Origin: an uncultured Ignavibacteria bacterium
Lineage (GTDB): Bacteria > Bacteroidota > Ignavibacteria > SZUA-365
Direction of reading: 5' to 3'
Assembly: GCA_913061095.1 (NCBI GenBank)
Contig: CAJXVM010000001.1
Location: 1 to 64,000, forward strand
Length of the DNA: 64,000 nucleotides
Shown: positions 1-13,638 of the stretch, in pieces
Numbering within the stretch: the first letter of the stretch is position 1
How the letters are laid out: each line of letters opens with the position of its first letter
Made by a program: the position numbers and the translations under genes
Notes under the pieces: generated by a model
The model's input: only the letters and a program-made list of their open reading frames with translations
The model's database searches: none
Told to the model about the DNA's origin: nothing

Positions 1-2
1 CG

Positions 3-461
3 ACGGAGAAGGGACGCCCATGGAATTGGGACGTGATCGAAGCAATCGATCCCGCGCATCCGGGCGCGCGTCCGCAGTTCCGCGCGATGACTTTCAGCGA
101 TGCGCAGCACGGCTGGGCCGTCGGCGACTACCGCTCGGGTGTCATCTATCGCACGACGACCGGCGGACTCGTGCACACCGACCGCATTCCGGCAGCAGAA
201 ACGCTCTCGATGTCGCTTTCACCGTCACCACTGCGGTCCGGTCAGCGGGCAACGGTGCGCATCGATCTGCCGTACCTTGATAATGTGCGCATTACTGTCC
301 ATGACATGCTCGGACGCGCGCTGCAGCGCGTCTACGAGGGTGAAATGTCCGCTGGAGCACAGAGCGTACCGTTAAACATGGCCGCGCTTCGTCCTGGGAC
401 GTATGTCCTCGTTATGAGAGGTTCGAACAGCTTCGCATCCTGCGCATTCGTCGTTCTCTGA
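3..461 (+). CDS. C-terminal part of secreted YCF48/BNR-like protein with type IX sorting domain (5' truncated)
   Basis: The reading frame is open to the left window edge, so only the last 152 residues are present. The first part contains DAQHGWAVGDY...IYRTTTGG, which resembles a YCF48/BNR beta-propeller repeat blade. The last ~80 residues (from about LSPSPLRSG, through VRITVHDMLGRALQ, to RPGTYVLVMRG) match the pattern of type A type IX secretion C-terminal sorting domains: VxDxLGR, a turn, then LxPGxYxL. The protein is therefore predicted to cross the outer membrane by the T9SS and to stay on the surface or be released. The family is inferred from short motifs; the N-terminal domains are not visible. 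Confidence 0.8.
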   Translation, partial: TEKGRPWNWDVIEAIDPAHPGARPQFRAMTFSDAQHGWAVGDYRSGVIYRTTTGGLVHTDRIPAAETLSMSLSPSPLRSGQRATVRIDLPYLDNVRITVHDMLGRALQRVYEGEMSAGAQSVPLNMAALRPGTYVLVMRGSNSFASCAFVVL

Positions 462-475
462 TATGCACGGATTAT

Positions 476-615
476 GTGGGATTACGCAGAGGTTTTACCA
501 CAGATTACGCTGATTACACAGAGATTTGAGACTAGCGCAGCACTGAACATGTTGCGCCTGCACTTATCTCCGTGTAATCCGTGGAATCTGTGGTAAGACA
601 TCCGCGCAATCCCAC
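476..615. repeat. Long imperfect palindrome built from CAGATTACAC-type words
   Basis: Two 50-nt arms, 476-525 and 566-615, are reverse complements at 42 of 50 positions, with a 40-nt loop. Both arms share the core TTACCACAGAT and repeat a GATTAC-type word (gattacgc, gattacgc, gattacac). The element starts 15 nt after the stop codon of the preceding gene. It may act as a hairpin terminator or mRNA stabiliser, or be a small dispersed intergenic repeat. It has no intact coding frame. Similar word palindromes, made from different words, lie at 1557-1638, 2815-2875 and 9506-9565. Confidence 0.8.
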
Positions 616-788
616 GGACTTTGACGCTTCGCGAAAAGAATGTAATTTGGGAGAATGAATCGAGCAGTTTTATTGTTTTGTCAGCGTTCGTCCCTTAGAA
701 CCCGCCTGTGACGGCGGGGAACATGCAGGCATGCTCCTACTTTACATAATATTTATTATCAGAAGTTAATACGGTTCACATACGGCAC
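616..788. other. Intergenic stretch with a short GC hairpin
   Basis: With the preceding palindrome this completes a gene-free gap of about 330 nt (462-788). The only structure seen is a perfect 6-bp stem, cccgcc (701-706) with ggcggg (713-718), followed by an imperfect gcaggcatgc palindrome near 725-734. The rest is A/T-rich. No promoter matching the FCB pattern could be placed confidently before the gene at 789, and no clear Shine-Dalgarno is visible there. Confidence 0.4.
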
Positions 789-1556
789 ATGAAAGAATCA
801 ACCAAGAAGAACTGGGACGATTTCTGGGATCAGAAATCAGACACGAAAGAAGTCTACGCGAATACCGATCGCATTCGCCGCAACCTTGCCCGCAACATGG
901 ATCTGCCCGGCAAACGCATTCTTGAAGTTGGGGCCGGCACGGGACGCGACAGTTTCTACATGTCCCAGGACGGCGCCACACTTGTACTTCTCGATTATTC
1001 GATGAATTCGTTGAAAATCATCAGGAATAATCTGCCTTCGACGGAAAATATCGGTGCGGTCGGCGGGGACGCCTTCGCGCTGCCTTTCCCGGATAATTCT
1101 TTCGACGCGGTGTTTCACCAGGGACTCCTCGAGCATTTCCGCAAAGGAATCGCTGAAGATCTGCTTCGTGAGAATATCCGCGTTCTCAAGCCCGGCGGAC
1201 TGCTCATCGTCGATGTTCCGCAGCGCTGGCACATCTATACGGTCATAAAACACATCCTGATCGCTCTCAATGCCTGGTTTGCCGGCTGGGAACGCGAGTT
1301 TTCAGTCACTGAACTACGTAAACTATTGAAAGATCTCGGCTTACAGCCCGTCGACGCATACGGCGAATGGATGTATCCGAGTCTCGTATACCGTACGTTC
1401 CGCGAAGCATTCTACAAGATCGGCGTCAAACTGCCCCTGTATCCGCGCCTGCTGCCGCCCGTCTCGCGCCTGCGCGAGAAAATCCGCAACGGAATGGACG
1501 GGACTGCGGTGAAACTGAATACCGCGCTGTCGATCGGCTTGATTGCCCGAAAATAA
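789..1556 (+). CDS. Class I SAM-dependent methyltransferase
   Basis: This is a 255-aa Rossmann-fold methyltransferase. Motif I is ILEVGAGTGRDSFYM (about residues 44-58), followed by the acidic end of strand beta2 (VLLDYS). The motif II/III region is DNSFDAVFHQGLLEHF and the later strand begins RVLKPGGLLIVDVP. This is the Methyltransf_11/25 pattern and does not reveal the substrate. The next gene is a GT4 glycosyltransferase on the same strand, 98 nt away, so a role in modifying a surface glycan or lipid is possible but only inferred from position. Confidence 0.8.
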   Translation: MKESTKKNWDDFWDQKSDTKEVYANTDRIRRNLARNMDLPGKRILEVGAGTGRDSFYMSQDGATLVLLDYSMNSLKIIRNNLPSTENIGAVGGDAFALPFPDNSFDAVFHQGLLEHFRKGIAEDLLRENIRVLKPGGLLIVDVPQRWHIYTVIKHILIALNAWFAGWEREFSVTELRKLLKDLGLQPVDAYGEWMYPSLVYRTFREAFYKIGVKLPLYPRLLPPVSRLREKIRNGMDGTAVKLNTALSIGLIARK

Positions 1557-1638
1557 CAGATTGCGGATTCCAGATTGCACATTGATGACTGTTTCGAATT
1601 TATCGCCTAGCAATCTGTAATCAGCAATCTTCAATCTG
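1557..1638. repeat. Palindrome built from CAGATTG words
   Basis: Arms 1557-1584 and 1611-1638 (28 nt each) are reverse complements at 22 of 28 positions, with a 26-nt loop. Each arm contains two or three copies of a cagattg/gattgc word. Arm 1 begins immediately after the TAA stop of the methyltransferase. The element fills most of the gap to the next gene and may end or attenuate the first transcript. It belongs structurally with the palindromes at 476-615, 2815-2875 and 9506-9565. Confidence 0.75.
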
Positions 1639-1654
1639 AAATATTATACTTTAA

Positions 1655-2797
1655 ATGACCTCATCTAAACCATTGAAGATTCTGGTATTTAACTGGCAGG
1701 ATATCACAAACCCGCTCGCCGGCGGAGCCGAGGTCCATCTGCATGAGGTGTTTGAACGTCTGGCTGTTCGCGGACATGAAGTTACGCTGTTCTGTCATCA
1801 TTTTGACGACGCGCCGCGCGAAGAAATGCGTAACGGTATCCGCATCATTCGCAAAGGAGGACGCTTCCTCTTCAATTTCCATGTCTTTTTCGAGTACATC
1901 AGGAGATTCAGAAAAGAAGGCTATGACGTTGTTATTGATGACGTTAACAAGATCCCCTTCTACACTCCCCTCTACGTCCGCGAACCCGTCCAGGGTGTAA
2001 CGCATCACCTTTTCGGCAAGAGCATATTCCTCGAGACGATCTTCCCGCTGGCAGCGTACGTGTATCTGGCTGAGCGCCTGATCAAACCGGTATATCGCAA
2101 TATCCATTTCATTATCGGCTCACCGAGCACGGCGAACGAATACCTCGAATGGGGCTTTCCAAAAGATCAGGTATCTGTGGTTAATTACTGTGTTAACAAA
2201 GATATATACTATAGTGATGAAAGTAATATCTATGACATAAACCATATTGCGTATTTCGGCCGGCTGAAAAAGTACAAGTCCGTCGACCACGTGATTCGCG
2301 CGATGGATCGTCTGCGGAACGAGTACCCGGAACTGCATCTCGATATCATCGGCGATGGAGATGACAAGCAGCGACTCGAAGATCTGACAACAGAACTTCA
2401 GCTGAATGACCGCATCACCTTCCATGGCTTCATCGATGAAGATCAGAAAGCCCCGATGCTGCAGAAAACCAATTTCGTGGTCAATACGTCATCCAAGGAA
2501 GGCTGGGGACTGACGGTTGTCGAGGCGAATGCCTGCGGCGCTCCCGTCGTGGCCGCGAATGTGCCCGGACTCCGTGATTCCGTCGTTGACGGCGAAACCG
2601 GACAACTCTACGAATTCGGAAACATCGACGATCTCATCGCCAAAATGAAGGTCTTTCTCGACTCCCCGGAGACGCGCAACACCTTCCGCGAGCGCGCACT
2701 CGAGTGGGCCGCAAAATTCGACTGGGAAGTCGCCGCATCGCAGACCATGGCGCTGATCGAACAGACCATATCGAAAAAGAAACGCCGTACGCACTGA
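1655..2797 (+). CDS. GT4-family glycosyltransferase
   Basis: This 380-aa retaining glycosyltransferase has the GT-B fold. The N-terminal domain contains NPLAGGAEVHLHEVFERLA, typical of GT4 enzymes. The C-terminal donor-binding half has HIAYFGRLKKYKSVDHVI (mid-protein) and the E-x7-E motif in EGWGLTVVEANACGAPVVA. The enzyme is expected to move a sugar from a nucleotide donor to a cell-surface glycan or lipid. The acceptor cannot be told from sequence. The start is an ATG a few bases after an AT-rich tract, with no obvious Shine-Dalgarno. It is the last + strand gene before a 33-kb minus-strand run. Confidence 0.88.
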   Translation: MTSSKPLKILVFNWQDITNPLAGGAEVHLHEVFERLAVRGHEVTLFCHHFDDAPREEMRNGIRIIRKGGRFLFNFHVFFEYIRRFRKEGYDVVIDDVNKIPFYTPLYVREPVQGVTHHLFGKSIFLETIFPLAAYVYLAERLIKPVYRNIHFIIGSPSTANEYLEWGFPKDQVSVVNYCVNKDIYYSDESNIYDINHIAYFGRLKKYKSVDHVIRAMDRLRNEYPELHLDIIGDGDDKQRLEDLTTELQLNDRITFHGFIDEDQKAPMLQKTNFVVNTSSKEGWGLTVVEANACGAPVVAANVPGLRDSVVDGETGQLYEFGNIDDLIAKMKVFLDSPETRNTFRERALEWAAKFDWEVAASQTMALIEQTISKKKRRTH

Positions 2798-2814
2798 TTG
2801 TATTCTTAATGCAA

Positions 2815-2875
2815 GGTGCAAAAAACAAAGTGCAAAACACTGTTCAATGCTGTTTTGTACTTTGTACTTTGCACT
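2815..2875. terminator. Palindrome built from GTGCAAAG/GTACAAAG words at a convergent junction
   Basis: Arms 2815-2839 and 2851-2875 (25 nt) are reverse complements at 21 of 25 positions, with an 11-nt loop. Both arms are made of tgcaaa/acaaag words. The element sits between the convergent glycosyltransferase (+) and riboflavin synthase (-) genes, the place for a bidirectional terminator. The stem is A/T-rich and lacks a GC clamp plus U-tract, so it is not a classical intrinsic terminator. The terminator role is inferred from position. Confidence 0.5.
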
Positions 2876-2914
2876 CTCGATTCGCTGGTCTCTGGATTGA
2901 AATACGATTTGGAA

Positions 2915-3550
2915 TCAATATCCCAACGACTTCAGATACCCCTCCGTAACCCCTTCCCCCCTCGCGTTTTGCAGATAGTTGAGAATGTATTTTCCAAGCA
3001 TGTCAAGCTCGATGTTGACGCGCGTGCCCTTGCGGTAGGTGTGGAAAAGCGTTGCGTCCCAGGTATGTGGAATGACGGAGACGCGGAATGAAGCCTCGCG
3101 CTTCTCTGCCACAGTGAGGCTGACGCCGTCAACACCGATGCTGCCGACGGGAATGATGTTCGGCGAGGCCGATCCCGGATAACTGATCTCGACCATCCAG
3201 CTCTCCTCCCTCCTCTCGATTCCGCGCACCTCGGCGGTGAAATCCACATGTCCCTGCACAAAATGTCCACCGAGACGGCTGTCGGCCCGCAGCGCCCGCT
3301 CGAGATTCAGCGGCACCCCGACATCCAGCAATCCCAGCGTCGATTTCTTCATAGTCTCCTCGACCGCTTCGACGGCGAATCCCCGTTCGTCGAATGCAAT
3401 TACCGTCAGACAGACCCCGTTGACAGCAATGCTGTCGCCCACGGCTGCACCGCCGAGCACCGCGTCTGCCGTGATGTCCAGTCGGCGTCCTCTTCCGAGC
3501 GGACGCATGGATTTCAGCTTCCCGATTTCCTCGATGATACCGGTAAACAT
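2915..3550 (-). CDS. ribE: Riboflavin synthase, alpha chain
   Basis: This 211-aa protein starts with the diagnostic MFTGIIEEIG and consists of two lumazine-binding beta-barrel repeats. The first has NGVCLTVIAFDERGFAVEAV and GGHFVQGHVD; the second has GSIGVDGVSLTVAEK. It dismutates two 6,7-dimethyl-8-ribityllumazine molecules into riboflavin. The frame extends 20 codons upstream, but the MFTG start fits the family and lies 1 nt after the ribD stop, so the two are translated together. GTP cyclohydrolase/DHBP synthase and lumazine synthase are not in this window. No FMN riboswitch lies directly before the pair. Confidence 0.95.
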   Translation of the reverse strand: MFTGIIEEIGKLKSMRPLGRGRRLDITADAVLGGAAVGDSIAVNGVCLTVIAFDERGFAVEAVEETMKKSTLGLLDVGVPLNLERALRADSRLGGHFVQGHVDFTAEVRGIERREESWMVEISYPGSASPNIIPVGSIGVDGVSLTVAEKREASFRVSVIPHTWDATLFHTYRKGTRVNIELDMLGKYILNYLQNARGEGVTEGYLKSLGY

Positions 3551-3551
3551 G

Positions 3552-4661
3552 TCATTCCTCCGGTTGCGGTCTGAGAATCGTGTAGACATCCTCTCCCATG
3601 TGCAGTACATCCTCGACGCGAAAACGCATGGCGTCGCTCAGATGCAGGGGACGAAGAGCGGAAAACGCCGCGCGTCCCTGCCCGATGATCTTCGGCGCGG
3701 TGAAGATGTCGAGACGATCGGCAAACCGCGCGCGCAGAAACGCGGAAAACACCTCCGCGCCGCCTTCCACGAGAATGGACCTGATGCCGAACTCGTCATA
3801 GAGCTGCTTCAGGGCGGATTTCAGCGAGGCGTATTCCATCATGTCGGTCGTGACGTCGAGCACGCGGACTCCGCGCTTGCGCAGTCTGGTGATATGAGAC
3901 GCGTTCGAGCGTGCGCTTTTTTTCGATGTGACGACGATGGTGTTATCGACAAGGTCGTCGCTGAATACCGCTGCGGAAAGCGGCAGATGCCACGACCGTG
4001 TCAGGATGATGCGCTGGGGATCACGGCCTTTCACATGCCGCACGTTCAGCGAGGGATTGTCTTTGCGGACGGTCTCCGCCCCGACAAGCACGGCGTCGTA
4101 AATGGAGCGCAGACGATGCACTTCTGTGCGCGACTCCTCGGATGTGATCCAGTGTGCCGTTCCCTTGAGGGCAGCCACGTGTCCGTCGAGCGTCTGCGCG
4201 ACCTTGAGCAGCACGAAGGGTCGGCGATGCACGGTATTGACGATATAGACCTCGTTGAGTGCCTCGCAGCGCTCGCGTTCCACATCCTCAACGACGGCGA
4301 CACCCGCCTCTCGAAGACGCTGCGCCCCGTTTCCCGTGACGGCGAGATTCGGATCGGGCATTCCGATCACGACTTTTCGAATGCCCGCGTCGATGATGGC
4401 CTCGGTACACGGCGGCGTTTTCCCGAAATGATTGCAGGGTTCGAGCGAAACGTAGAGCGTCGCCCCGCGGGCATTCGCACCTGCATCGCGCAGCGCTTCC
4501 ACCTCTGCATGCGGTCCGCCGTAGCGCTGATGCCATCCCTTGCCGACAATGCGTCCGCCCGCGACGATGACACATCCCACCATGGGATTGGGTTCAACCT
4601 CTCCCCGTCCCTGCTCGGCGAGCTGCAGGCATTTGAGCATGTACTGGCTGTCTTTTTTCAT
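3552..4661 (-). CDS. ribD: Bifunctional riboflavin biosynthesis deaminase/reductase
   Basis: A 369-aa protein with an N-terminal zinc-dependent deaminase (PNPMVGCVIV, HAEVEALRDAG, then SLEPCNHFGKTPPC, giving the His/Cys/Cys ligands) and a C-terminal NADPH-dependent reductase (RPFVLLKVAQTLDGHVA, ILVEGGAEVFSAFL). It carries out the second and third steps of the riboflavin pathway. The start at 4661 (MKKDSQYML) was preferred to one 21 codons upstream because family homology begins there and it leaves a 4-nt gap to the preceding gene. It is followed directly by ribE. Confidence 0.95.
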   Translation of the reverse strand: MKKDSQYMLKCLQLAEQGRGEVEPNPMVGCVIVAGGRIVGKGWHQRYGGPHAEVEALRDAGANARGATLYVSLEPCNHFGKTPPCTEAIIDAGIRKVVIGMPDPNLAVTGNGAQRLREAGVAVVEDVERERCEALNEVYIVNTVHRRPFVLLKVAQTLDGHVAALKGTAHWITSEESRTEVHRLRSIYDAVLVGAETVRKDNPSLNVRHVKGRDPQRIILTRSWHLPLSAAVFSDDLVDNTIVVTSKKSARSNASHITRLRKRGVRVLDVTTDMMEYASLKSALKQLYDEFGIRSILVEGGAEVFSAFLRARFADRLDIFTAPKIIGQGRAAFSALRPLHLSDAMRFRVEDVLHMGEDVYTILRPQPEE

Positions 4662-4665
4662 CGTG

Positions 4666-6087
4666 CTACTCGAGACGCATGATTTTGCGAACCTTGGGAA
4701 AATCCCTGTTTGTAAGAATACCAAGCCGCTCGAAGACCATCAAGGCAGTGGAAATTTTTCTGCTGCCGCGGTTTCCCGCGAGCGGAACGCGGGTCTCCCC
4801 CTCGACAACCATTGTGGCCGAACTGCCTCCGTCAAGGTTCGTACCCTGCCACGCGCCGCGGGCGATCAGGAGTTCCGCCAGCTGCTGCAGAGGCACCCCG
4901 CGTCTGCGATGCCGCCGGTTGTAGGGTTCGACGGTCATCATGATGAGCGTATCGCTGCCCTTGCTGATGCCGAGGGCCGAACGCCCGTAATGACCCTCGA
5001 CGAATCGGATTTTCGTCAGGCCGGCCTCCTCCCACTCGACGCTGACATTCCCGTCACGCACGATGCGCGGTGTTCCTCCGGTCATCTGCACGACCGGCTC
5101 CTCCACAATGGGATCGAGGCGACTGGCAATTGAAAAGGTGTCACCGACAAAAAGCGAGGAGAAGAGCGGAAAGGGGCCCCTGCCGAAGGAAATGACTCCT
5201 CCGTTTTCCGGGATCGCAACAAAGCCCGTATCCAGTGCGGTCACACGACACGGAATGCGCGTGTTTGCAAGCGGCGGATAGATGTACGTGAACTGCATCT
5301 TCAGCGTGCCGCTCTCGCGGCTCACCGACCAGACAGAATCCATATGCGCCATGATAAGCGTATCGATCCGGGATTCGGAGTCATCGGTGATGGTGTCCTG
5401 TGAAGCCTCACGGATGCCGACGGTATCAATAAACGGCACCGACGATCCGGCAAATGTTGTGTAAAGCACCACTTCCGTCGAATCGACGCGGCGGTTCAGG
5501 CGCGATATGGGGATACTGCCGAGCCGTGTATCGAGTGATACGGCGAGGTCGAATGTGTCGATGAGCACCTGTCCGTGGTCCGTGAACGCAACGGAGGGCC
5601 AGTTGCGGTACTTGTCCGCCACAAGCATTTCGCCGTCAATGACCGTCGGACCCATCGGATGCAGTGTCCCGGCTTTCCAGAAATTCGCGTTGATGCCGGC
5701 GAGAACACGTATGGGCGTCACCACGCTGTCGTAGCGATGCATGATGCTGTACGCCTGCTCGAGACCGGACATGTGATCGAGTCCCTTCCCCAGCCGCACA
5801 TCAATCCGTGGATTGCGCAGGTCGACGGTGACGGTGTGTACCGACAGACGTGTTTCGGGAATATACGTGTGGAAGTAATTGACACCGTCGGAGAGCTGCC
5901 GCAGACTGTCGGGCGGCAATGCGGTGCGCGGATCCGGTTCTGGCTTCTCCTCCCCGCCGGTCGCCGCTGTCGAATCCGTCGTCCGGACGAGAGTGGTTTC
6001 GTGCTGTGCGCGCAGGCCCGCGGGCGCTCCCGCGAGCAACCCGATCAGTATCAGCAGCGTAACGAGAGCTGGGATGCGGACAGTCAT
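4666..6087 (-). CDS. Secreted phosphodiester glycosidase domain (NAGPA/DUF2233) protein
   Basis: This 473-aa protein has an N-terminal signal peptide (LVTLLILIGLLAGAPAG, cleaved near AQHE), then a linker rich in Thr, Glu and Pro. The catalytic-type domain has VLAGINANFW, GPTVIDGEMLVAD near the middle and LDGGSSATMVVEG near the C-terminus. These are hallmarks of the phosphodiester glycosidase family, related to the mannose-6-phosphate uncovering enzyme and bacterial exopolysaccharide proteins. It probably acts in the periplasm or at the surface on a sugar-phosphate diester. The substrate is unknown. It lies between dxs (13 nt) and ribD (4 nt) in one direction. Confidence 0.78.
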   Translation of the reverse strand: MTVRIPALVTLLILIGLLAGAPAGLRAQHETTLVRTTDSTAATGGEEKPEPDPRTALPPDSLRQLSDGVNYFHTYIPETRLSVHTVTVDLRNPRIDVRLGKGLDHMSGLEQAYSIMHRYDSVVTPIRVLAGINANFWKAGTLHPMGPTVIDGEMLVADKYRNWPSVAFTDHGQVLIDTFDLAVSLDTRLGSIPISRLNRRVDSTEVVLYTTFAGSSVPFIDTVGIREASQDTITDDSESRIDTLIMAHMDSVWSVSRESGTLKMQFTYIYPPLANTRIPCRVTALDTGFVAIPENGGVISFGRGPFPLFSSLFVGDTFSIASRLDPIVEEPVVQMTGGTPRIVRDGNVSVEWEEAGLTKIRFVEGHYGRSALGISKGSDTLIMMTVEPYNRRHRRRGVPLQQLAELLIARGAWQGTNLDGGSSATMVVEGETRVPLAGNRGSRKISTALMVFERLGILTNRDFPKVRKIMRLE

Positions 6088-6099
6088 TCCTTCCGGGTG

Positions 6100-8031
6100 T
6101 TAGGCGATGTTTTCCACGGTCGCGCTGAGCGTGATGCCGAGCATGTCGCCGGCCATGCGCGCGAGGCCGAGGGGATCAAGGTTGAGGCTGCGATACAGTT
6201 CTTCCTGTTTCCCGTGATCGATAAAGTCGTCGGGAAGACCGTGGATGCGAAGCGTGCATTGCGCGTCCGCGATGGTGGTGAGATGCTCCGCCACGGCGCT
6301 GCCGAATCCACCGACGACGGAATTGTCCTCCACAGTCAGGATGTATTTGAACCGCTGCGCCAGCGCGTCGATCAGTTCGGTATCGAGCGGCTTAATGAAG
6401 CGCATGTTGTATACGGCGGCTGAAATATCGCTGTGGGAGAGCAGCTCCGCCGCTTTGACTGCATGCTGCACCATGTTGCCGACGGCCAGGATGGCGATGT
6501 CATCACCTTCGCGGCGCATTTCCGCCTTGCCGATCGGCAGGCGCTGGAATTCTTCGCGCAACGGCAGACCGATGGCGTTGCCTCGGGGATAGCGGAAGGC
6601 GACGGGACCATCATGCTCCACCGCCGTGTAGAGCATATCACGCAGTTCCTGTTCGTCGGCCGGAGCCATGATGACCATCTTCGGGATATGCCGCAGATAG
6701 GAAAGATCATACGCACCGTGATGTGTCGGACCGTCCGCGCCGACGAGCCCGCCGCGATCCAGGGCAAAAACAACGTGCAGATCCTGGATGGCGACATCAT
6801 GGATAACCTGGTCAAAGGCGCGCTGCAGGAATGTCGAGTAAATGGCGGCCACGGGGATGTATCCTTCCGTTGCCATGCCGGCAGCGAAAGTCACCGCGTG
6901 CTGTTCGGCGATTCCAACATCGAAATATTTCTCCGGAATTTCGCGCTGAAGCTTGTCAAGTCCCGTACCGGATGACATCGCCGCAGTTATGCCGACGACT
7001 TTCGGATTTTTCCTGATGATCTCAATCAGGGCGTCAGCGAACACGGATGTATAACTCGGCATCCCACCGGTTTTCTTCGGCGCCTTGCCGGTGATCTTGT
7101 CAAACGGCGTCACGCCGTGCAGATTCATGTTGTCATTTTCCGCCGGCGCGTATCCCTTACCCTTCTGTGTGACAACATGAACGAGCACCGGACCGGACCA
7201 GTCCTGCACTTCCTCGAAGATCTTGACGAGTGATACGACATTGTGGCCGTTGATCGGACCGAAGTACCGAAATCCGAGTGCTTCGAAGAGCATGCCCGGA
7301 GTCAGAACGGATTTGAGTCCGCCTTCAAGACGCGCCGCGATCTTGCGGAAGCGATCGCCGATATGTTCGAATTTGCCGGCGAGATCCCAGACGTTCGCAC
7401 GGAAGCGGTTGTAGGTCGGGGACGCGATCAGCTCGTTGAAATAATTTGAGATCGCCCAGACGTTTGGCGCGATAGACATGTTGTTGTCGTTGAGTACGAC
7501 TATCATGTTCTTCTTCAGCAGGCCGCAGTTATTCATGGCTTCGTAGGCCATGCCACCGGTCATCGCACCATCGCCGATGACGGCAACGACCTTGTAGTCC
7601 TCTTCGTCGAAATCCCGGGCGGATGCCACACCCAGCGCCGCGGAAATCGACGTTGTCGCGTGACCGGCGCCGAACACGTCGTACGGACTTTCCTTCCGCT
7701 TCAGGAAGCCGCTGATACCACCGTACTGCCGGATGGTATGAAGGCGGTCTTTTCGTCCCGTAAGAATCTTGTGGGGATATGCCTGGTGCCCGACATCCCA
7801 GATGACCTTGTCTTCGGGAGTCTGAAAAGCGTAGTGCAGCGCAACGGCGAGTTCGACGGTACCGAGCCCCGCGCCAAGATGACCACCGGTCCGCGAGACG
7901 GTATCAATAAGGAAATCCCTGATTTCCGAACTGACCTTTCGCAAATCCTTGATATCAAGCCTGCGGAGATCCGCCGGATCGTCGATGCTGCTCAGCAGCG
8001 TGCTTTTTGAGTGTTCAGACATGAAGTCCAT
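6100..8031 (-). CDS. dxs: 1-deoxy-D-xylulose-5-phosphate synthase
   Basis: This 643-aa thiamine-diphosphate enzyme condenses pyruvate and glyceraldehyde-3-phosphate in the first step of the MEP isoprenoid pathway. Visible landmarks are GHQAYPHKILTGR, GAGHATTSISAALG, the ThDP/Mg motif GDGAMTGGMAYEA-MNN, and the transketolase-type region DRGGLVGADGPTHHGAYD. The length is typical. A second in-frame ATG at 8022 is an alternative start. The gene follows xseB by 17 nt, the common xseA-xseB-dxs order. Confidence 0.96.
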   Translation of the reverse strand: MDFMSEHSKSTLLSSIDDPADLRRLDIKDLRKVSSEIRDFLIDTVSRTGGHLGAGLGTVELAVALHYAFQTPEDKVIWDVGHQAYPHKILTGRKDRLHTIRQYGGISGFLKRKESPYDVFGAGHATTSISAALGVASARDFDEEDYKVVAVIGDGAMTGGMAYEAMNNCGLLKKNMIVVLNDNNMSIAPNVWAISNYFNELIASPTYNRFRANVWDLAGKFEHIGDRFRKIAARLEGGLKSVLTPGMLFEALGFRYFGPINGHNVVSLVKIFEEVQDWSGPVLVHVVTQKGKGYAPAENDNMNLHGVTPFDKITGKAPKKTGGMPSYTSVFADALIEIIRKNPKVVGITAAMSSGTGLDKLQREIPEKYFDVGIAEQHAVTFAAGMATEGYIPVAAIYSTFLQRAFDQVIHDVAIQDLHVVFALDRGGLVGADGPTHHGAYDLSYLRHIPKMVIMAPADEQELRDMLYTAVEHDGPVAFRYPRGNAIGLPLREEFQRLPIGKAEMRREGDDIAILAVGNMVQHAVKAAELLSHSDISAAVYNMRFIKPLDTELIDALAQRFKYILTVEDNSVVGGFGSAVAEHLTTIADAQCTLRIHGLPDDFIDHGKQEELYRSLNLDPLGLARMAGDMLGITLSATVENIA

Positions 8032-8048
8032 CCGCAGTTGGAAAACGG

Positions 8049-8282
8049 TTACTCGCCATCGAAGTCCAAGGTCTCAAAAACCCCGTCCGAGCGCTTTCGC
8101 AGGACCTTTATCTTTTTCTGGGCTTCGGACAGATATGTAACACATTTTTCGACGATTTCGATTCCTTCCTCGTATAATTTCATGCTTTCCTCGAGAGGAG
8201 TGCCTTCATCGTCAAGCGTCTGAACGATCTGATTCAGTCGTTCGAGCTGCTGTTCAAAGGTTTCAGTCTTTTTTTTGCTCAT
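8049..8282 (-). CDS. xseB: Exodeoxyribonuclease VII small subunit
   Basis: A 77-aa acidic helical protein. It has the family pattern FEQQLERLNQIVQTLDDEG followed by PLEESMKLYEEGIEIVEKC. It binds XseA to form exonuclease VII, which degrades single-stranded DNA. The start at 8282 (MSKKKTETFEQ) lies inside the 3' end of xseA, giving a 20-nt overlap that suggests coupled synthesis of the two subunits. An upstream in-frame ATG would add 14 residues outside the family. Confidence 0.92.
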   Translation of the reverse strand: MSKKKTETFEQQLERLNQIVQTLDDEGTPLEESMKLYEEGIEIVEKCVTYLSEAQKKIKVLRKRSDGVFETLDFDGE

Positions 8283-9483
8283 GTTCCTTGATCTGCAGAA
8301 TGCTGGCCTCAGCTGAACCGTCACGCAGGGTCAGTGAGACGAAATCACCCGGCTGAAGCTGCTGCACGGAGGTGACCGGGTCGGTTCCGCGGCGCATCAG
8401 CACAGCACCGCGCCGGAAAAAACGATCCGGGGCGTGGGCATCGAGCTGATGGCGCAGCAGGGACACTCGGTGCTGTCGCCGCTCGAAGGCATGCTCGATG
8501 ATGCGCTGCGCGGTCTGATGCCGCTCGTCCACGAACTGCATGAGTCCCTGGAGGCGGCCTTCGAGCCGAGAGAAGGCGCGATCGGAAAGCATCACCCGCA
8601 GGCGCTGCTCATACGCGCGCATGCTGGAATCTACGAATTTCCCCGCAGCCGAAGCAATGCCCTCGAGTCTGCTCAGTAGTTCTTCGCGGGCGGGAACGAC
8701 TATTTCACCGGCAACCGACGGCGTTGCCGCGCGGACGTCAGCGACATAATCGGCGATCGTGACATCCACTTCATGTCCCACGGCGCTGACAACAGGGATG
8801 CGGGATCGAGCGATTGCCCGAGCGACGATCTCTTCGTTGAATGCCCACAGGTCCTCTATCGATCCTCCACCCCGTCCCGTGATGATGACATCGACTGCAC
8901 CGTATTCGTTGCAGTGATCCAATGCCTCGGCAATCTGCTCGGCCGCGCCGGCACCCTGCACCTGGACCGGCATCATGATCAGTTGCACGGAGGGATTCCT
9001 GCGCTGCATGACGCTTATCATATCGCGCACGGCTGCGCCCGTGGATGACGTGACGAGTGCGACGACATCCGGAAAGACGGGGAGCGATTTTTTAAGGGAC
9101 TCATCGAACAGTCCCTCGTCATACAGCTTGCGTTTCAGTTTTTCAAAGGCAACCTGGAGTGCTCCCTCGCCGCGCGGCTGCATGTCGCTGACGACGATCT
9201 GGTAATTCCCGCGGGGCTCATAGACCGTAATCCGTCCCCGGCAAATCACCTCCATTCCGTTTTCCGGACGGAAAAACGTCCCCATCGCGTTGCCGCGAAA
9301 CATCACCGCGGAAAGCTGCGCGCCGGCATCCTTCAGCGTGAAATACAGGTGTCCCGAGGAATGGCGATGGAAATTCGAAATTTCTCCCGTGACCGTGACA
9401 GATCCGATCGCGCGCTCAAGGGTGTCCTTGATCTGGCGCGTCAGCTGGGAGATTGTGAGAATATTTTCTGTAAGCGTTGACAT
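8263..9483 (-). CDS. xseA: Exodeoxyribonuclease VII large subunit
   Basis: A 406-aa protein with an N-terminal OB-fold (residues ~20-115, including GEISNFHRHSSGHLYFTLKD) and the catalytic core with VALVTSSTGAAVRDMISVMQRRNP, then GRGGGSIEDLWAFNEE and GHEVDVTIADYVAD. The C-terminal part is helical and ends in a small domain. Together with XseB it cleaves single-stranded DNA from both ends. The ATG at 9483 (MSTLTENIL) was chosen over one 17 codons upstream because the conserved region begins there. Confidence 0.95.
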   Translation of the reverse strand: MSTLTENILTISQLTRQIKDTLERAIGSVTVTGEISNFHRHSSGHLYFTLKDAGAQLSAVMFRGNAMGTFFRPENGMEVICRGRITVYEPRGNYQIVVSDMQPRGEGALQVAFEKLKRKLYDEGLFDESLKKSLPVFPDVVALVTSSTGAAVRDMISVMQRRNPSVQLIMMPVQVQGAGAAEQIAEALDHCNEYGAVDVIITGRGGGSIEDLWAFNEEIVARAIARSRIPVVSAVGHEVDVTIADYVADVRAATPSVAGEIVVPAREELLSRLEGIASAAGKFVDSSMRAYEQRLRVMLSDRAFSRLEGRLQGLMQFVDERHQTAQRIIEHAFERRQHRVSLLRHQLDAHAPDRFFRRGAVLMRRGTDPVTSVQQLQPGDFVSLTLRDGSAEASILQIKEHEQKKD

Positions 9484-9505
9484 CAGGAGTTCAATGACAG
9501 GATGC

Positions 9506-9565
9506 AAAGATAGAAAGATGTCAAGAGCAAGCACGATCTTGCCATCTTGCCATTTTTCTATCTTT
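9506..9565. repeat. Palindrome of AAAGATAGAAAGATG / CAAGATGGCAAG words overlapping the nadB stop
   Basis: Arms 9506-9526 and 9545-9565 are reverse complements at 19 of 21 positions around an 18-nt loop. The loop side continues the theme with caagagcaag on one side and gccatcttgcc on the other. The second arm covers the nadB stop codon (9558-9560) and its last codons, so the palindrome partly codes for the C-terminus of NadB. It lies between nadB and xseA and may act as a terminator or mRNA 3' end. It belongs to the same structural class as 476-615, 1557-1638 and 2815-2875. Confidence 0.75.
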
Positions 9566-11177
9566 CTATTTCATCAAATACCGAGAGAAGTGTATCCGCC
9601 TGATCCATCCCGGGGTCGGTTTCCGGATAATCGGTCGTGTAATGCAGCCCGCGGCTTTCCCTGCGACGCATCGCGCTCTCGATGATAAGGTGTCCGAGAA
9701 GCGTGATGTTCCGCAGCTGAATCAGGCGTTCGGAAACACGTGTACGCTTGTAAAAATCCTCCACTTCACTGCGAAGCAGGTCGATGCGCCGCTTTGCGCG
9801 TGCAAGGCGTAGGTCGGAGCGGACGATCCCGACGTAGTCCCACATCAGTGTCCGTACTTCCCTGCGGTTGTGGGATATCAGCACCCATTCTTCCGCATTG
9901 TACGTATCAGTATCGTCCCATGGAGCGATGTCTTCCACGGGAGGTTCGGAGTGCGTGTCCTCAAGCGCGGTATCCGCGGCGCGATTCGCGAAGACCAGGG
10001 CCTCGAGTAATGAGTTGCTCGCGAGCCGGTTCGCGCCGTGGAGACCAGTCATCGCCGCCTCGCCTGCGACCATCAATCCGTGTATGGTTGTGTGACCATG
10101 TGCGTCACTGACCACGCCGCCGCAGGTATAATGTGCTGCGGGAACGACCGGGACCAGATCCCTTGTAATATCAATGTTTACCTCACGGCATCTCTTGTAA
10201 ATACTCGGGAATGATTGGCGAACGTCATCCGCATCGAGATGGCGCAGATCGAGAAAAACGCTTTCTTCTCCCCTTCTCTTGAGCTCACTGTCGATGGCGC
10301 GTGCGACGACATCCCGCGGAGCAAGTTCGAGTCGGGAGTCGTACTTCTCCATGAAGCGCTCTCCGGATCTGTTGACCAGATGCGCACCATGGCCGCGTAC
10401 GGCTTCGGAGATGAGGAAGGAACGCGCCTGCGGATGAAACAGCGTGGTCGGGTGAAACTGAATGAACTCCATGTTGGCGATATCGGCTCCCGCGCGATAT
10501 GCCATGGCGATACCGTCCCCCGTGGCGATAGCTGGATTGGTGGTGTGCAGATAAACCTGTCCGCAGCCGCCCGCCGTGATAATCGTGTTCCGTGCGAAAT
10601 AGGGGTGGACCTCGCCGGTCGTTTTATCCAGCACGAATGCGCCCCAGCAGTGAATCTGTCCTCGCGCGAGTGTCGGACGATCGATCAGGTTGTGCTCGGT
10701 AACCAGGTCGATGGCAATATGATCTTCGTATACGGAGATACGCGGGTGGGCTCGGGCACGTTCGACCAGGACTCGCTCGACTTCCCGTCCCGTATAGTCG
10801 CGCGCGTGCACAATGCGGTGACGCGAATGACCGCCCTCCCTTCCGAGATGCAGATGCTTCTCTTCCTCCTGCGTGAAATCCACACCGAGATCCCAGAGCT
10901 GCTGCACGAGGTGGGGTCCCTCATGGACCACGATATCGACAATCTCGGGATGGCAGAGACCGGCGCCCGCCTGAATCGTGTCATCACGATGCAGCTGCAT
11001 CGAATCGTCTGCTGCGAATACTGATGCGATACCTCCCTGCGCGTAATTGGTGTTGGATTCGACGGTCTGCTTTTTGGTGACGAGCGCGACGCTGCCGTGT
11101 TCGGCGACCTTGAGGGAAAAAAACAGTCCGGCGATGCCGCTGCCGATGACGAGGAAATCTGTCTGCGGCGGTTTCAT
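9558..11177 (-). CDS. nadB: L-aspartate oxidase
   Basis: This 539-aa flavoprotein oxidises L-aspartate to iminoaspartate, the first step of de novo NAD synthesis, and belongs to the succinate dehydrogenase flavoprotein family. Seen are the FAD-binding motif DFLVIGSGIAGLFFSLKVAE at the N-terminus, then NYAQGGIASV, EGGHSRHRIVHARD and the substrate region MEFIQFHPTTLF with AHYTCGGVVSDAHG. The C-terminus has the helical domain LISHNRREVRTLMWDYVGIVR. nadA and nadC are not in the window. Its ATG overlaps the coaE stop by 4 nt. Confidence 0.95.
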   Translation of the reverse strand: MKPPQTDFLVIGSGIAGLFFSLKVAEHGSVALVTKKQTVESNTNYAQGGIASVFAADDSMQLHRDDTIQAGAGLCHPEIVDIVVHEGPHLVQQLWDLGVDFTQEEEKHLHLGREGGHSRHRIVHARDYTGREVERVLVERARAHPRISVYEDHIAIDLVTEHNLIDRPTLARGQIHCWGAFVLDKTTGEVHPYFARNTIITAGGCGQVYLHTTNPAIATGDGIAMAYRAGADIANMEFIQFHPTTLFHPQARSFLISEAVRGHGAHLVNRSGERFMEKYDSRLELAPRDVVARAIDSELKRRGEESVFLDLRHLDADDVRQSFPSIYKRCREVNIDITRDLVPVVPAAHYTCGGVVSDAHGHTTIHGLMVAGEAAMTGLHGANRLASNSLLEALVFANRAADTALEDTHSEPPVEDIAPWDDTDTYNAEEWVLISHNRREVRTLMWDYVGIVRSDLRLARAKRRIDLLRSEVEDFYKRTRVSERLIQLRNITLLGHLIIESAMRRRESRGLHYTTDYPETDPGMDQADTLLSVFDEIER

Positions 11178-11797
11178 GGATTCCGGCGCCCGCCGAGTCT
11201 GGTCACAATGCCGACCACCCCTGTCGTGGAACGACGCAGATCCTCCAGCGTGCCGTTGTTGCGAATGGTAAAATCGGCGCGTTCCGCTTTTTCATCGGGC
11301 GGCAGCTGGCTGCGCATGCGTCTGCGGACGTCATGCTCGCTTAGCCCGTCACGCTTCATGATGCGCTCGACGGCTTTGTCCACCGGACAGATGACGGCAA
11401 TGACATAATCGTACAACCCCTGCGTTCCCGCCTCGAAGACCAGTGCGGATTCGATGAAAACGACGTCCGCTCCGTTAGCATGCAGGGCTGCGGCCTGCTC
11501 CATGATGCGGTCGATCGTTGGAGGATGCACGATGCTGTTGAGGAATTCGAGTTTCTGCGGATCATCGAAAACGATTTCCGCAATGAAGCTGCGGTTGAGG
11601 CTGCCGTCTGAGAGATATGTCTGCACACCAAATGCATCGATCAATGCGGAACGGACCGCATCGTCCTGTTCCATGATGTCACGTGCGATGCGGTCCGCTA
11701 TGAGAACGGGGTACTGTTCTGCGATGATCTCCGCAACGGTGCTTTTCCCTGCACCGATGCTGCCGGTCAGTCCGATGAGAAGCGGTTGTTCTGCCAT
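11174..11797 (-). CDS. coaE: Dephospho-CoA kinase
   Basis: This 207-aa P-loop kinase performs the last step of coenzyme A synthesis. It contains the Walker A sequence GLTGSIGAGKST near the N-terminus, then the adenine/CoA region DRIARDIMEQDD and the LID element IMKRDGLSEHDVRRRMRSQL. The stop codon overlaps the nadB start (ATGA), and rny lies 33 nt upstream. The length is normal for the family. Confidence 0.94.
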   Translation of the reverse strand: MAEQPLLIGLTGSIGAGKSTVAEIIAEQYPVLIADRIARDIMEQDDAVRSALIDAFGVQTYLSDGSLNRSFIAEIVFDDPQKLEFLNSIVHPPTIDRIMEQAAALHANGADVVFIESALVFEAGTQGLYDYVIAVICPVDKAVERIMKRDGLSEHDVRRRMRSQLPPDEKAERADFTIRNNGTLEDLRRSTTGVVGIVTRLGGRRNP

Positions 11798-11830
11798 GCC
11801 TGATCTCTGTCGCTGAGGCTGGGTATGCTC

Positions 11831-13399
11831 CTATTTGGCGAATGCGATGGACCGTTTTTCCCGGATCACGGTCACCTTGATCTGACCGGGATATTCCATC
11901 TCGCCCTGGATTTTCTCCGCAATGTCCGTGGCGAGCTGATCTGCCAGTGTGTCGTCGATGCGATCGTGTTCAACCATGACACGGACCTCGCGTCCCGCCT
12001 GGATGGCATAGGTTTTCGCCACGCCCTCGAAGCCGGTGGCGATGTTCTCGAGTTTCTCGAGGCGTTTGACATATCCCTCGAGCGATTCACGGCGCGCACC
12101 CGGACGCGCGCCGCTGATGGCGTCGGCGGCCTGCACCAGCGGTGCATAGGGCGATTCCATCTCGATATCATCGTGATGCGATCCGACTGCGTTGACGATA
12201 ATGGGATGCTCGCGGAATTTCTTCGTGATCTCCATGCCGAGCAGCGCATGCGGTCCTTCGACGTTGCGATCGACACACTTTCCAATGTCGTGGAGGAGTC
12301 CTGCCCGAGTGGCGATCTTGGGATCAAGTCCGAGCTCTGTCGCCATGATTCCGCACAGCCAGGCGACCTCAATGCTATGCTGCAGGAGGTTCTGTCCGTA
12401 GCTGGAGCGGAATTTCATCTTGCCGACGAGGCGTTTGATTTCATTGTGCGCATTGTGGATGCCGACGTCGAGCAGGGTGTTTTCGCCGACGCGGAAAATC
12501 TCTTCTTCGAGATCCTTGCGGACCTTCTCGACAACCTCCTCGATGCGCGCGGGATGAATGCGGCCGTCCGCCATGAGTGTCTCGAGGGCCAGACGCGCCA
12601 CTTCGCGGCGGAACGGATCGAACCCGGAGAGGATGACCGCCTCCGGCGTGTCATCGACGATGACGTCGATACCCGTAGCCGCTTCGAACGCACGAATATT
12701 TCGTCCCTCGCGTCCGATAATGCGGCCTTTCATATCCTCGCTGGCGAGGTTGAGCACGCTGACCGTGGTTTCCACGGAGTGATCCGATGCCGTGCGCTGG
12801 ATTGCCTGGAGGATGACGCGCTGCGCCTCCTTTTTCGCGGTGCCCTTCATCTCATCGCGAATTTCCTTGAGCTGCTGCGCGGCCTGGAGTTTCGCGTCAC
12901 TGGTGAGGTTTTCGATGAGCATGTTCCGGGCGTCATCGCGCGACATACCGGAGACGCGTTCGAGTTTCTCGGTCTGCTCGGCGATGATCTGATTGACGCG
13001 TTCGATGCGCCCATCGAGTTCATCCCTGCGTTCCTGCAATTCCTTCTCGGTTTGCGCTGCGGCGGCCTCTTTCTTATTGAGAACATCAAATTTCGCGTTG
13101 AGGTTTTCTTCACGGTTGGAGAGCTGTTTCTCGCGGGCGTGGAGTTTGTTGCGCTGACGGTTGAGTTCCTTTTCGACGTCCTGTTTCTTGCGGAACCACT
13201 CGTCTTTGACCTCGAGCAGTTTCTCCTTCTTGCTGTTCTCCGCCTCCTTTTCCGCGATCTCAATGATTTCCCGGGCGCGGTCTTCGGCGACGGATATCTT
13301 GTTCTGGCTGACGCGGGCAGCGATATACCAACCGAGAAACAGGAAGGCCGCACACAGGGCGACAACGGTTGGCAGCAGCCAGTATAATTCAACATTCAT
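11831..13399 (-). CDS. rny: Ribonuclease Y
   Basis: This 522-aa membrane-anchored endoribonuclease takes part in mRNA decay. It has an N-terminal transmembrane helix (LLPTVVALCAAFLFLGWYIA), a long charged coiled coil (residues ~30-190), a KH domain (GRIIGREGRNIRAFEAATG) and an HD domain with GLLHDIGKCVDR and SHHDDIEMESPYAP. In many FCB genomes rny is found close to zapA, as here. A 6S-like RNA lies between the two. Confidence 0.96.
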   Translation of the reverse strand: MNVELYWLLPTVVALCAAFLFLGWYIAARVSQNKISVAEDRAREIIEIAEKEAENSKKEKLLEVKDEWFRKKQDVEKELNRQRNKLHAREKQLSNREENLNAKFDVLNKKEAAAAQTEKELQERRDELDGRIERVNQIIAEQTEKLERVSGMSRDDARNMLIENLTSDAKLQAAQQLKEIRDEMKGTAKKEAQRVILQAIQRTASDHSVETTVSVLNLASEDMKGRIIGREGRNIRAFEAATGIDVIVDDTPEAVILSGFDPFRREVARLALETLMADGRIHPARIEEVVEKVRKDLEEEIFRVGENTLLDVGIHNAHNEIKRLVGKMKFRSSYGQNLLQHSIEVAWLCGIMATELGLDPKIATRAGLLHDIGKCVDRNVEGPHALLGMEITKKFREHPIIVNAVGSHHDDIEMESPYAPLVQAADAISGARPGARRESLEGYVKRLEKLENIATGFEGVAKTYAIQAGREVRVMVEHDRIDDTLADQLATDIAEKIQGEMEYPGQIKVTVIREKRSIAFAK

Positions 13400-13424: not shown

Positions 13425-13638
13425 TACCGCACTACCCCGATCAGCTGGGGAGGGGTTAAAAAAGAACCCGTCCAAGACACAGTGGGTAAATGCCTTCACA
13501 TCTTTTGCTTCCACTGTCAGCCGCGAACGGCTGAATCTCGAAGGATTGAGGCCTGCAATTGATGTGGAAGAGTCAGATTCCCAGGTAAAAAGTGTTGGTT
13601 CTTTTTAACGTGGCCAGCGATCGGATTGTAGTGCGGTA
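13425..13638 (-). ncRNA. ssrS: 6S-like RNA (SsrS)
   Basis: The 255-nt gap between rny and zapA folds, on the minus strand, into one long rod. The ends pair as taccgcactac (13628-13638) with gtagtgcggta (13425-13435), 11 perfect pairs. Inside are ccgatcgctgg with ccagctgatcgg (one bulge), then gttaaaaagaacc with gggttcttttttaac. Near the tip are cttccac with gtggaag and tcagccg-UUCG-loop-cggctga. Length (~214 nt), paired ends, long rod with internal bubbles and a position next to zapA match 6S RNA, which binds RNA polymerase holoenzyme by mimicking an open promoter. The 5' end lies 17 nt after the zapA stop and no clear own promoter was seen, so it may be processed from the zapA transcript. 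Confidence 0.72.

Follow-up and report, generated by a model that had tools for sequence, protein, structure and literature searches.

In this study, we describe a large and apparently unnamed class of intergenic elements, in which tandem arrays of a 7-9-nt word are paired and point inward between genes. In one genus, every species sampled retains the palindromic design in the same gap, while the sequence is exchanged as a whole, the exchanged words being drawn from a repertoire that is also found in other genera of the family; at least one word is common to at least 16 phyla. This pattern is explained neither by simple mutation nor by any known mobile element. Bacterial intergenic DNA is usually read as promoters, terminators or debris; word slots provide a concrete, testable system for the spread of short repeats across phyla and for the rewriting of intergenic gaps.

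Four inward word pairs in the window

The window, that is, the whole stretch of DNA analysed, comprises the first 64,000 nt of a 384-kb contig belonging to a genome of 4.61 Mb (G000). It holds four inward pairs:

476-615, no strand assigned: member 1, inward pair of 9-nt CRCNGATTN words, loop at 526-565
476-525, no strand assigned: left arm of member 1, words GATTACGC.. / CAGATTACGCTGATTACAC
566-615, no strand assigned: right arm of member 1, with inward-reading words on the minus strand
1557-1638, no strand assigned: member 2, inward pair of the words CAGATTG/CAGATTGC, best inverted repeat at 1558-1630
2816-2874, no strand assigned: member 3, inward GTGCAAA pair between convergent genes
9506-9565, no strand assigned: member 4, inward pair of AAAGATAG/AAGATGGC, overlapping the 3' end of a nadB-like gene

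The 50-nt arms of member 1 are complementary at 42 of 50 positions (84%) around a loop of 40 nt, exactly as claimed in an earlier note on this DNA, and the three further places to which that note ascribed the same design do share it: the inverted-repeat scores of members 1 to 4, from an inside-out local alignment scan, are 60, 32, 33 and 32, and the word periods in their arms are 9, 7, 7 and 8. Member 2 has one additional word beyond the right side of its best inverted repeat, and member 3 matches a GTGCAAA family dispersed in G000. Folding as RNA is strong (z against shuffles of -10.7, -4.5, -7.2 and -4.2 for members 1 to 4), and all four lie at gene 3' ends, members 1, 2 and 3 at 14, 1 and 18 nt after a stop codon and member 4 overlapping its gene by 8 nt. 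A simple scan for intrinsic terminators (GC-rich stem plus direct T run) called none of the four, Rfam gave no gathering-level match within positions 1-12000 of the window, and plasmid BLAST with its first 2.9 kb returned no match. A fifth inverted repeat of the window, at 13425-13638 in the gap between two minus-strand genes, scores 30 with a 128-nt loop and is devoid of word structure.

Abundance, placement and polarity

These palindromes are not as rare as in shuffled DNA, the outcome that the earlier note had set against the reality of the class: across 450 kb of G000, partly chosen around GATTAC matches, 33 inverted repeats score 30 or more compared with 1.0 in local dinucleotide shuffles, a count that takes in terminators and REP-like repeats. 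The same design recurs elsewhere in the genome with other words (ACACAGAGGACCCAGAGG, GGGAACGAAGG, CACGAAGACACAAAA and GTAAAGGGTAAAG). Altogether, the statistics from G000 itself cover about 660 kb plus 3-kb stretches, partly picked around word matches.

The position at gene 3' ends, which the earlier note had claimed for each element, holds for the window members and not genome-wide: the 19 word-only pairs of G000 lie 28 nt from the nearer gene, against 22 nt for random placement in the same gap (P 0.85). Among these pairs, convergent gaps are over-represented (6/19, P 0.02) and divergent gaps under-represented (2/19, P 0.04). A seemingly strong genome-wide preference for 3' ends (median of 16 nt from the stop codon, 51 expected) was discarded, since it arose from mixing terminators and REP-like repeats with word elements and was gone with the word elements alone.

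In G000 there are 19 inward pairs, one mixed cluster and no outward pair; in GATTAC-word loci from many phyla, about 35 clusters are inward, two are mixed and none is outward, the bidirectional clusters running +++---. Single-armed arrays are nevertheless frequent in G000 (22 of 42 clusters). The two arms agree at the degenerate positions of the 9-nt word in 0.84 (0.74 by chance) and 0.70 (0.56 by chance), that is, only slightly above chance, so the feature being kept is the word in each arm and not strict base pairing.

Dispersed word families and a word shared across phyla

A query containing the GTGCAAA pair has many dispersed matches to the pair in G000 and its sister species G004; in G001-G003 the same query matched in its other parts only, so that the copy burst is lineage-specific. 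The GTGCAAA elements share their arms and have a loop unique to each, and single arrays of the word are also present. When the gaps of the window are compared in sister species (about 76-80% DNA identity), the elements persist in part. Thus, the CAGATTG gap of member 2 has the same word in G001, a decayed form of it in G004 and a different word in G008 (GTTAAACG, GATTAACGATTCTC); several relatives, G003 and G006 among them, have nothing there. The methyltransferase-glycosyltransferase-ribE/ribD cluster found at 789-4661 of the window has a second copy at G000:C10:153907-155964 (L091), with 75-78% DNA identity and reaching a contig end; either the cluster is truly duplicated or the assembly includes a contig of a related species.

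The GATTAC word has a much wider range. The exact word pair CCACAGATTACACNGATTACAC occurs in at least 120 genome stretches from at least 16 named phyla, one of them archaeal, most of these stretches being metagenome bins, in which misbinning could inflate the list of phyla. With 21 fixed bases in the query, our arithmetic gives about 0.1 chance matches in 257 Gb. Four phyla are represented by cultured organisms: Asticcacaulis species, Bacteroides sp. 224, Herpetosiphon llansteffanensis and Laspinema olomoucense. In GATTAC loci and in loci of relatives, palindromes of the same type are formed by further words, namely CACGGAGAA, CGCAGAGGC, CGCAAAGGC, GTTTCAG, TGAGATT and GGTTCTA. No linked gene family was found among 465 proteins neighbouring the words across phyla, and none of 5,426 E. 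coli genomes contains a perfect GATTAC palindrome. Among IMG/VR viral contigs, the word pair is found in seven stretches (L222-L228), two of which have near-identical surroundings. In the planctomycete OFTM393 (L110, L136, L142, L177, L187), GATTAC palindromes form a family whose loop, about 80 nt long, is conserved, in contrast to the GTGCAAA loops of G000, each of which is unique.

Period 7 is that of GTGCAAA and of the words in the two slots described below; as the GATTAC word has period 9 and AAAGATAG period 8, the class is wider than heptamer repeats. The earlier note had attributed the shared design to a general mechanism rather than to descent from a single mobile element. The class is indeed real, its words are unrelated, and the architecture is shared and kept apart from sequence; as an account, however, this was incomplete, because each word is a dispersed family and GATTAC is common to many phyla, so that the inheritance of words and their spread belong in it as well.

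Fixed slots with exchanged words

The comparison of the same gaps in relatives, which the earlier note had proposed, was made for orthologous gaps in 30 species of a genus (g123) of the same phylum as G000. Two gaps are filled in every species. The era-der gap holds a heptamer palindrome in 30/30, made of TGAGATT, TCAAGAA, AGTCTTA, TTTACGA, ATGAGTT or TAGTATC depending on the species. The gap between a SAM riboswitch and metH likewise holds a word palindrome in 30/30, made of TGAGATT, CAGTTTG, TAGTATC, GATTACAC (spaced) or GTTGCGG-like words. We take the genes to be era, der and metH from their sequences; among these locus assignments the riboswitch is the one that was checked, as a match to RF00162, which is the sole Rfam match at the metH locus and leaves the element itself without one.

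Lag-7 autocorrelation is +0.16 in the era-der gap and +0.15 in the metH gap, compared with +0.016 in a control gap, and both slots show sharp maxima at lags 7 and 14 that the control lacks. A significant inverted repeat is present in 29/30 era-der gaps and 26/30 metH gaps, against 5/28 for the control. On the tree of the flanking genes, a minimum of 14 word changes is required for era-der and 13 for metH, with means of 13.5 and 13.8 for shuffled labels; the word therefore has no phylogenetic signal, though the slot is always filled. These word types were assigned by eye, a weakness of the count, and whole-allele alignments of the metH slot between species support them, as the median z is 14.5 for alleles of the same word and -0.1 for alleles of different words. 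Among 46 comparisons of metH alleles with the same word, clear homology of the loops was seen in only 4.

Outside g123, in the rest of the family, about half of the metH slots that could be read are filled with the same words; the remainder are short, empty or different, so a filled slot is not obligatory. The g123 elements also fill a 5' leader, that of the riboswitch, and divergent gaps, and the strict position at gene 3' ends does not hold in this genus either.

Word exchange in a close species pair

The exchange can be followed in the species pair G442 and G459 (93.8% gene identity), of which 194 paired gaps were compared. Clear word exchanges are seen in three gaps, that of metH, gap 8 (GCAGTT vs GTTCATA) and gap 86 (GTTCATA vs GGTTGATTGGGTGAAT), and the 150 bp flanking the exchanged gaps are intact, with 83-99% identity. 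In other slots the word is kept, with rearrangement, and in the era-der gap the copy number differs by about one word. In this comparison between species, no clean presence or absence of a heptamer word pair was found in the 194 paired gaps, and for most swaps no donor element or intermediate was seen. About 18 of 111 gaps are matched at 0.64 or less, and many gaps also differ by other palindromic families, so intergenic turnover in the genus is broad. Other dispersed palindromes turning over between these species (L293-L312, L343-L362) are TCATTGCGAGGNACGAAGCAATC, CCCCTCTTGAGAGGGG, CCGTTGACTTTAGTCAACGG, CACTCGGCTGGAGCCGAG and CCTTCGACAGGCTCAGCATGACA, and one gap (reg1 gap 129) shows a clean insertion with the repeat AGGATGACAA at its edges.

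Origin and replacement of the word pairs

The data need the spreading of words, a reason for the fixed slots and the joint replacement of both arms. We tentatively favour an explanation in which word arrays spread as repeats into gaps that tolerate or use a border hairpin. Discrete families of 7-9-nt words, together a repertoire, would spread as repeats within genomes and between lineages, and a complete pair would settle in a given gap, where its arms could fold into a long hairpin, as DNA or as RNA. The paired architecture would persist because the gap tolerates a border stem or benefits from one, perhaps through transcript-end protection, processing or insulation rather than canonical intrinsic termination. 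Once a pair had decayed or been overwritten, the pair of another word would replace both arms and the loop together, and thus the word would change and the slot remain filled. We infer that selection holds the stem and that replacement copies in a whole pair rather than writing it in place; some pairs may be supplied by DNA from other strains. Against this explanation stand the near-chance agreement of the arms at degenerate positions, the frequent single-armed arrays, the metH slots left unfilled in other genera, the rarity of clearly homologous loops and the many swaps for which no donor or intermediate was seen.

The main rival is the exchange of intergenic alleles, whereby homologous recombination, with the conserved genes on either side as anchors, swaps whole gaps with different word palindromes between species, the words being passengers. 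The switching of intergenic regions is already a published phenomenon, as far as the accessible text of the two reports goes (PMC5890482, PMC9944727). Direct support comes from the metH slot, where G442 and G456 have TGAGATT alleles with homologous loops (z 18), contrary to the species tree, on which the sister of G442 is G459, a carrier of CAGTTTG like G446; moreover, the flanking genes are unbroken right up to the gap edges and many other G442/G459 gaps are unalike too. Such exchange, however, leaves the origin of different word types at one slot unexplained, as well as the fact that nearly every alternative is a heptamer palindrome, and most same-word alleles share their arms and no detectable loop, although the loops may be saturated. 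We consider it rather unlikely.

Transposition of a MITE or REPIN-like kind, with a transposase recognising the word arrays as ends and moving non-autonomous palindromes, appears distinctly unlikely. The two-sided inward polarity recalls the transposase-binding repeats at transposon ends, copy bursts are limited to lineages, families with conserved loops exist in some genomes (planctomycete OFTM393, Bacteroidales), and Y1_Tnp-like proteins were found in 6/6 genomes tested, five of them above the family cut-off. On the other hand, the GTGCAAA elements are not conserved as whole elements including their interior, single arms are common, no gene family accompanies the words across phyla and the G442/G459 gaps offer no clean empty site for a heptamer pair. 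The full-length Y1_Tnp gene examined in G000 is flanked by CCCCACCCGTGAGGGTGGGG repeats and not by words; other palindromes likewise flank Y1_Tnp in G143 and G459, and a single word-like pair is found about 1 kb from the gene in G442.

Quite improbably, the arrays could instead be the product of a dedicated activity that uses a template, such as a reverse transcriptase or an end-adding polymerase that, in the fashion of telomerase, adds a short word to each side of a break. If true, this would give the inward polarity, the period of 7-9, one word in both arms, unique loops and free exchange of words at a fixed slot.

Growth in place without any mobility, in which the arrays lengthen through slipped-strand replication and one arm is copied to the other when the template switches across the hairpin, fits the tandem words within arms and the one-word difference in the era-der gap of G442 and G459, and slippage is proposed for heptamers in the accessible text of PMC4692102. 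It is very improbable, as by itself it cannot explain why an identical word pair occurs in at least 16 phyla, why different slots and genera reuse one repertoire or why both arms change together between close species. Convergence of ordinary terminators or mRNA 3'-end hairpins on similar sequences, in line with the strong folding, the 3'-end position of all four window members and the enrichment of convergent gaps, is more improbable still, given that the terminator scan calls none of the four, that elements also occupy a riboswitch leader and divergent gaps, and that unrelated phyla share exact words.

Relation to known repeats

Single heptamer repeats (TAACTGA, GGGAATC and the cyanobacterial STRR) are the nearest known relatives of the word pairs. 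TAACTGA heptamers are found as direct repeats between genes in marine Beggiatoaceae, Cyanobacteria and Bacteroidetes (MacGregor 2015, PMC4679880); as with our words, they form intergenic tandem arrays common to distant phyla, with horizontal spread suspected and no mechanism known. They occur mostly as direct sets oriented towards start codons, with one indirect repeat (PMC4679880), whereas the arrays described here are inward pairs and thus palindromes, with many words per genome and exchange of words at conserved slots. The GGGAATC or GGGGA(T/C)T heptamers of Xanthomonas and Nostoc (PMC4692102) are also intergenic, lie between the same genes in two related species and show extensive variation in length and sequence, including inverted cases; in the accessible text of that report, which also mentions three Calothrix heptanucleotides, each clade has one G-rich quadruplex word and no replacement by another word is reported, in contrast to the exchange of words seen here.

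The 7-nt head-to-tail intergenic unit typical of LSSR, STRR, TAACTGA and GGGAATC repeats is found in GTGCAAA and in the era-der and metH slot words; the direct array of those repeats is replaced here by words facing each other in two-orientation clusters, with single arrays also occurring. The STRR heptanucleotides of heterocystous cyanobacteria are intergenic tandem repeats with several words per genome, described as direct; they resemble our elements in their tandem heptamers and their several words, and are not known to show the inward pairing or the slot exchange. DNA uptake sequence dyads of Neisseria and Pasteurellaceae are also short words in inverted pairs after genes, with one word per lineage and one copy per arm, whereas here there are many words and several copies per arm; the presence of several words per genome makes a single genome-wide word driving DNA uptake unlikely here.

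The literature searched, which covered sources other than subscription journals, contained no account of inward pairs with word exchange at a fixed slot; searches for the literal word sequences returned unrelated papers only, and searches for the class by phrase returned nothing. The statement of the earlier note that the class has no name is thus borne out for the paired, swappable form and has to be qualified for single heptamer repeats, which are published (PMC4679880, PMC4692102).

REP and REPIN sequences, like the word pairs, are extragenic palindromes in inverted pairs at gene borders. A REP is, however, a single conserved palindrome of 20-40 bp, present in high copy and linked to a RAYT, whereas the arms here are variable tandem words of several families per genome, and the REP-like family around the Y1_Tnp gene of G000 differs in sequence from the words. 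That family, CCCCACGCGTAAGCGTGGGG / CCCCACCCGTGAGGGTGGGG, is found at L101 1971-3154 (G000:C16) and also at L032 and L035, and together with the Y1_Tnp gene it is likely a REP/RAYT system of this genome. A further set of palindromes, TTTTTACCCGGGTAAAAA (L027, L033, L097), often stands in tandem with a spacing of 22 nt in divergent or wide gaps, and possibly represents an operator.
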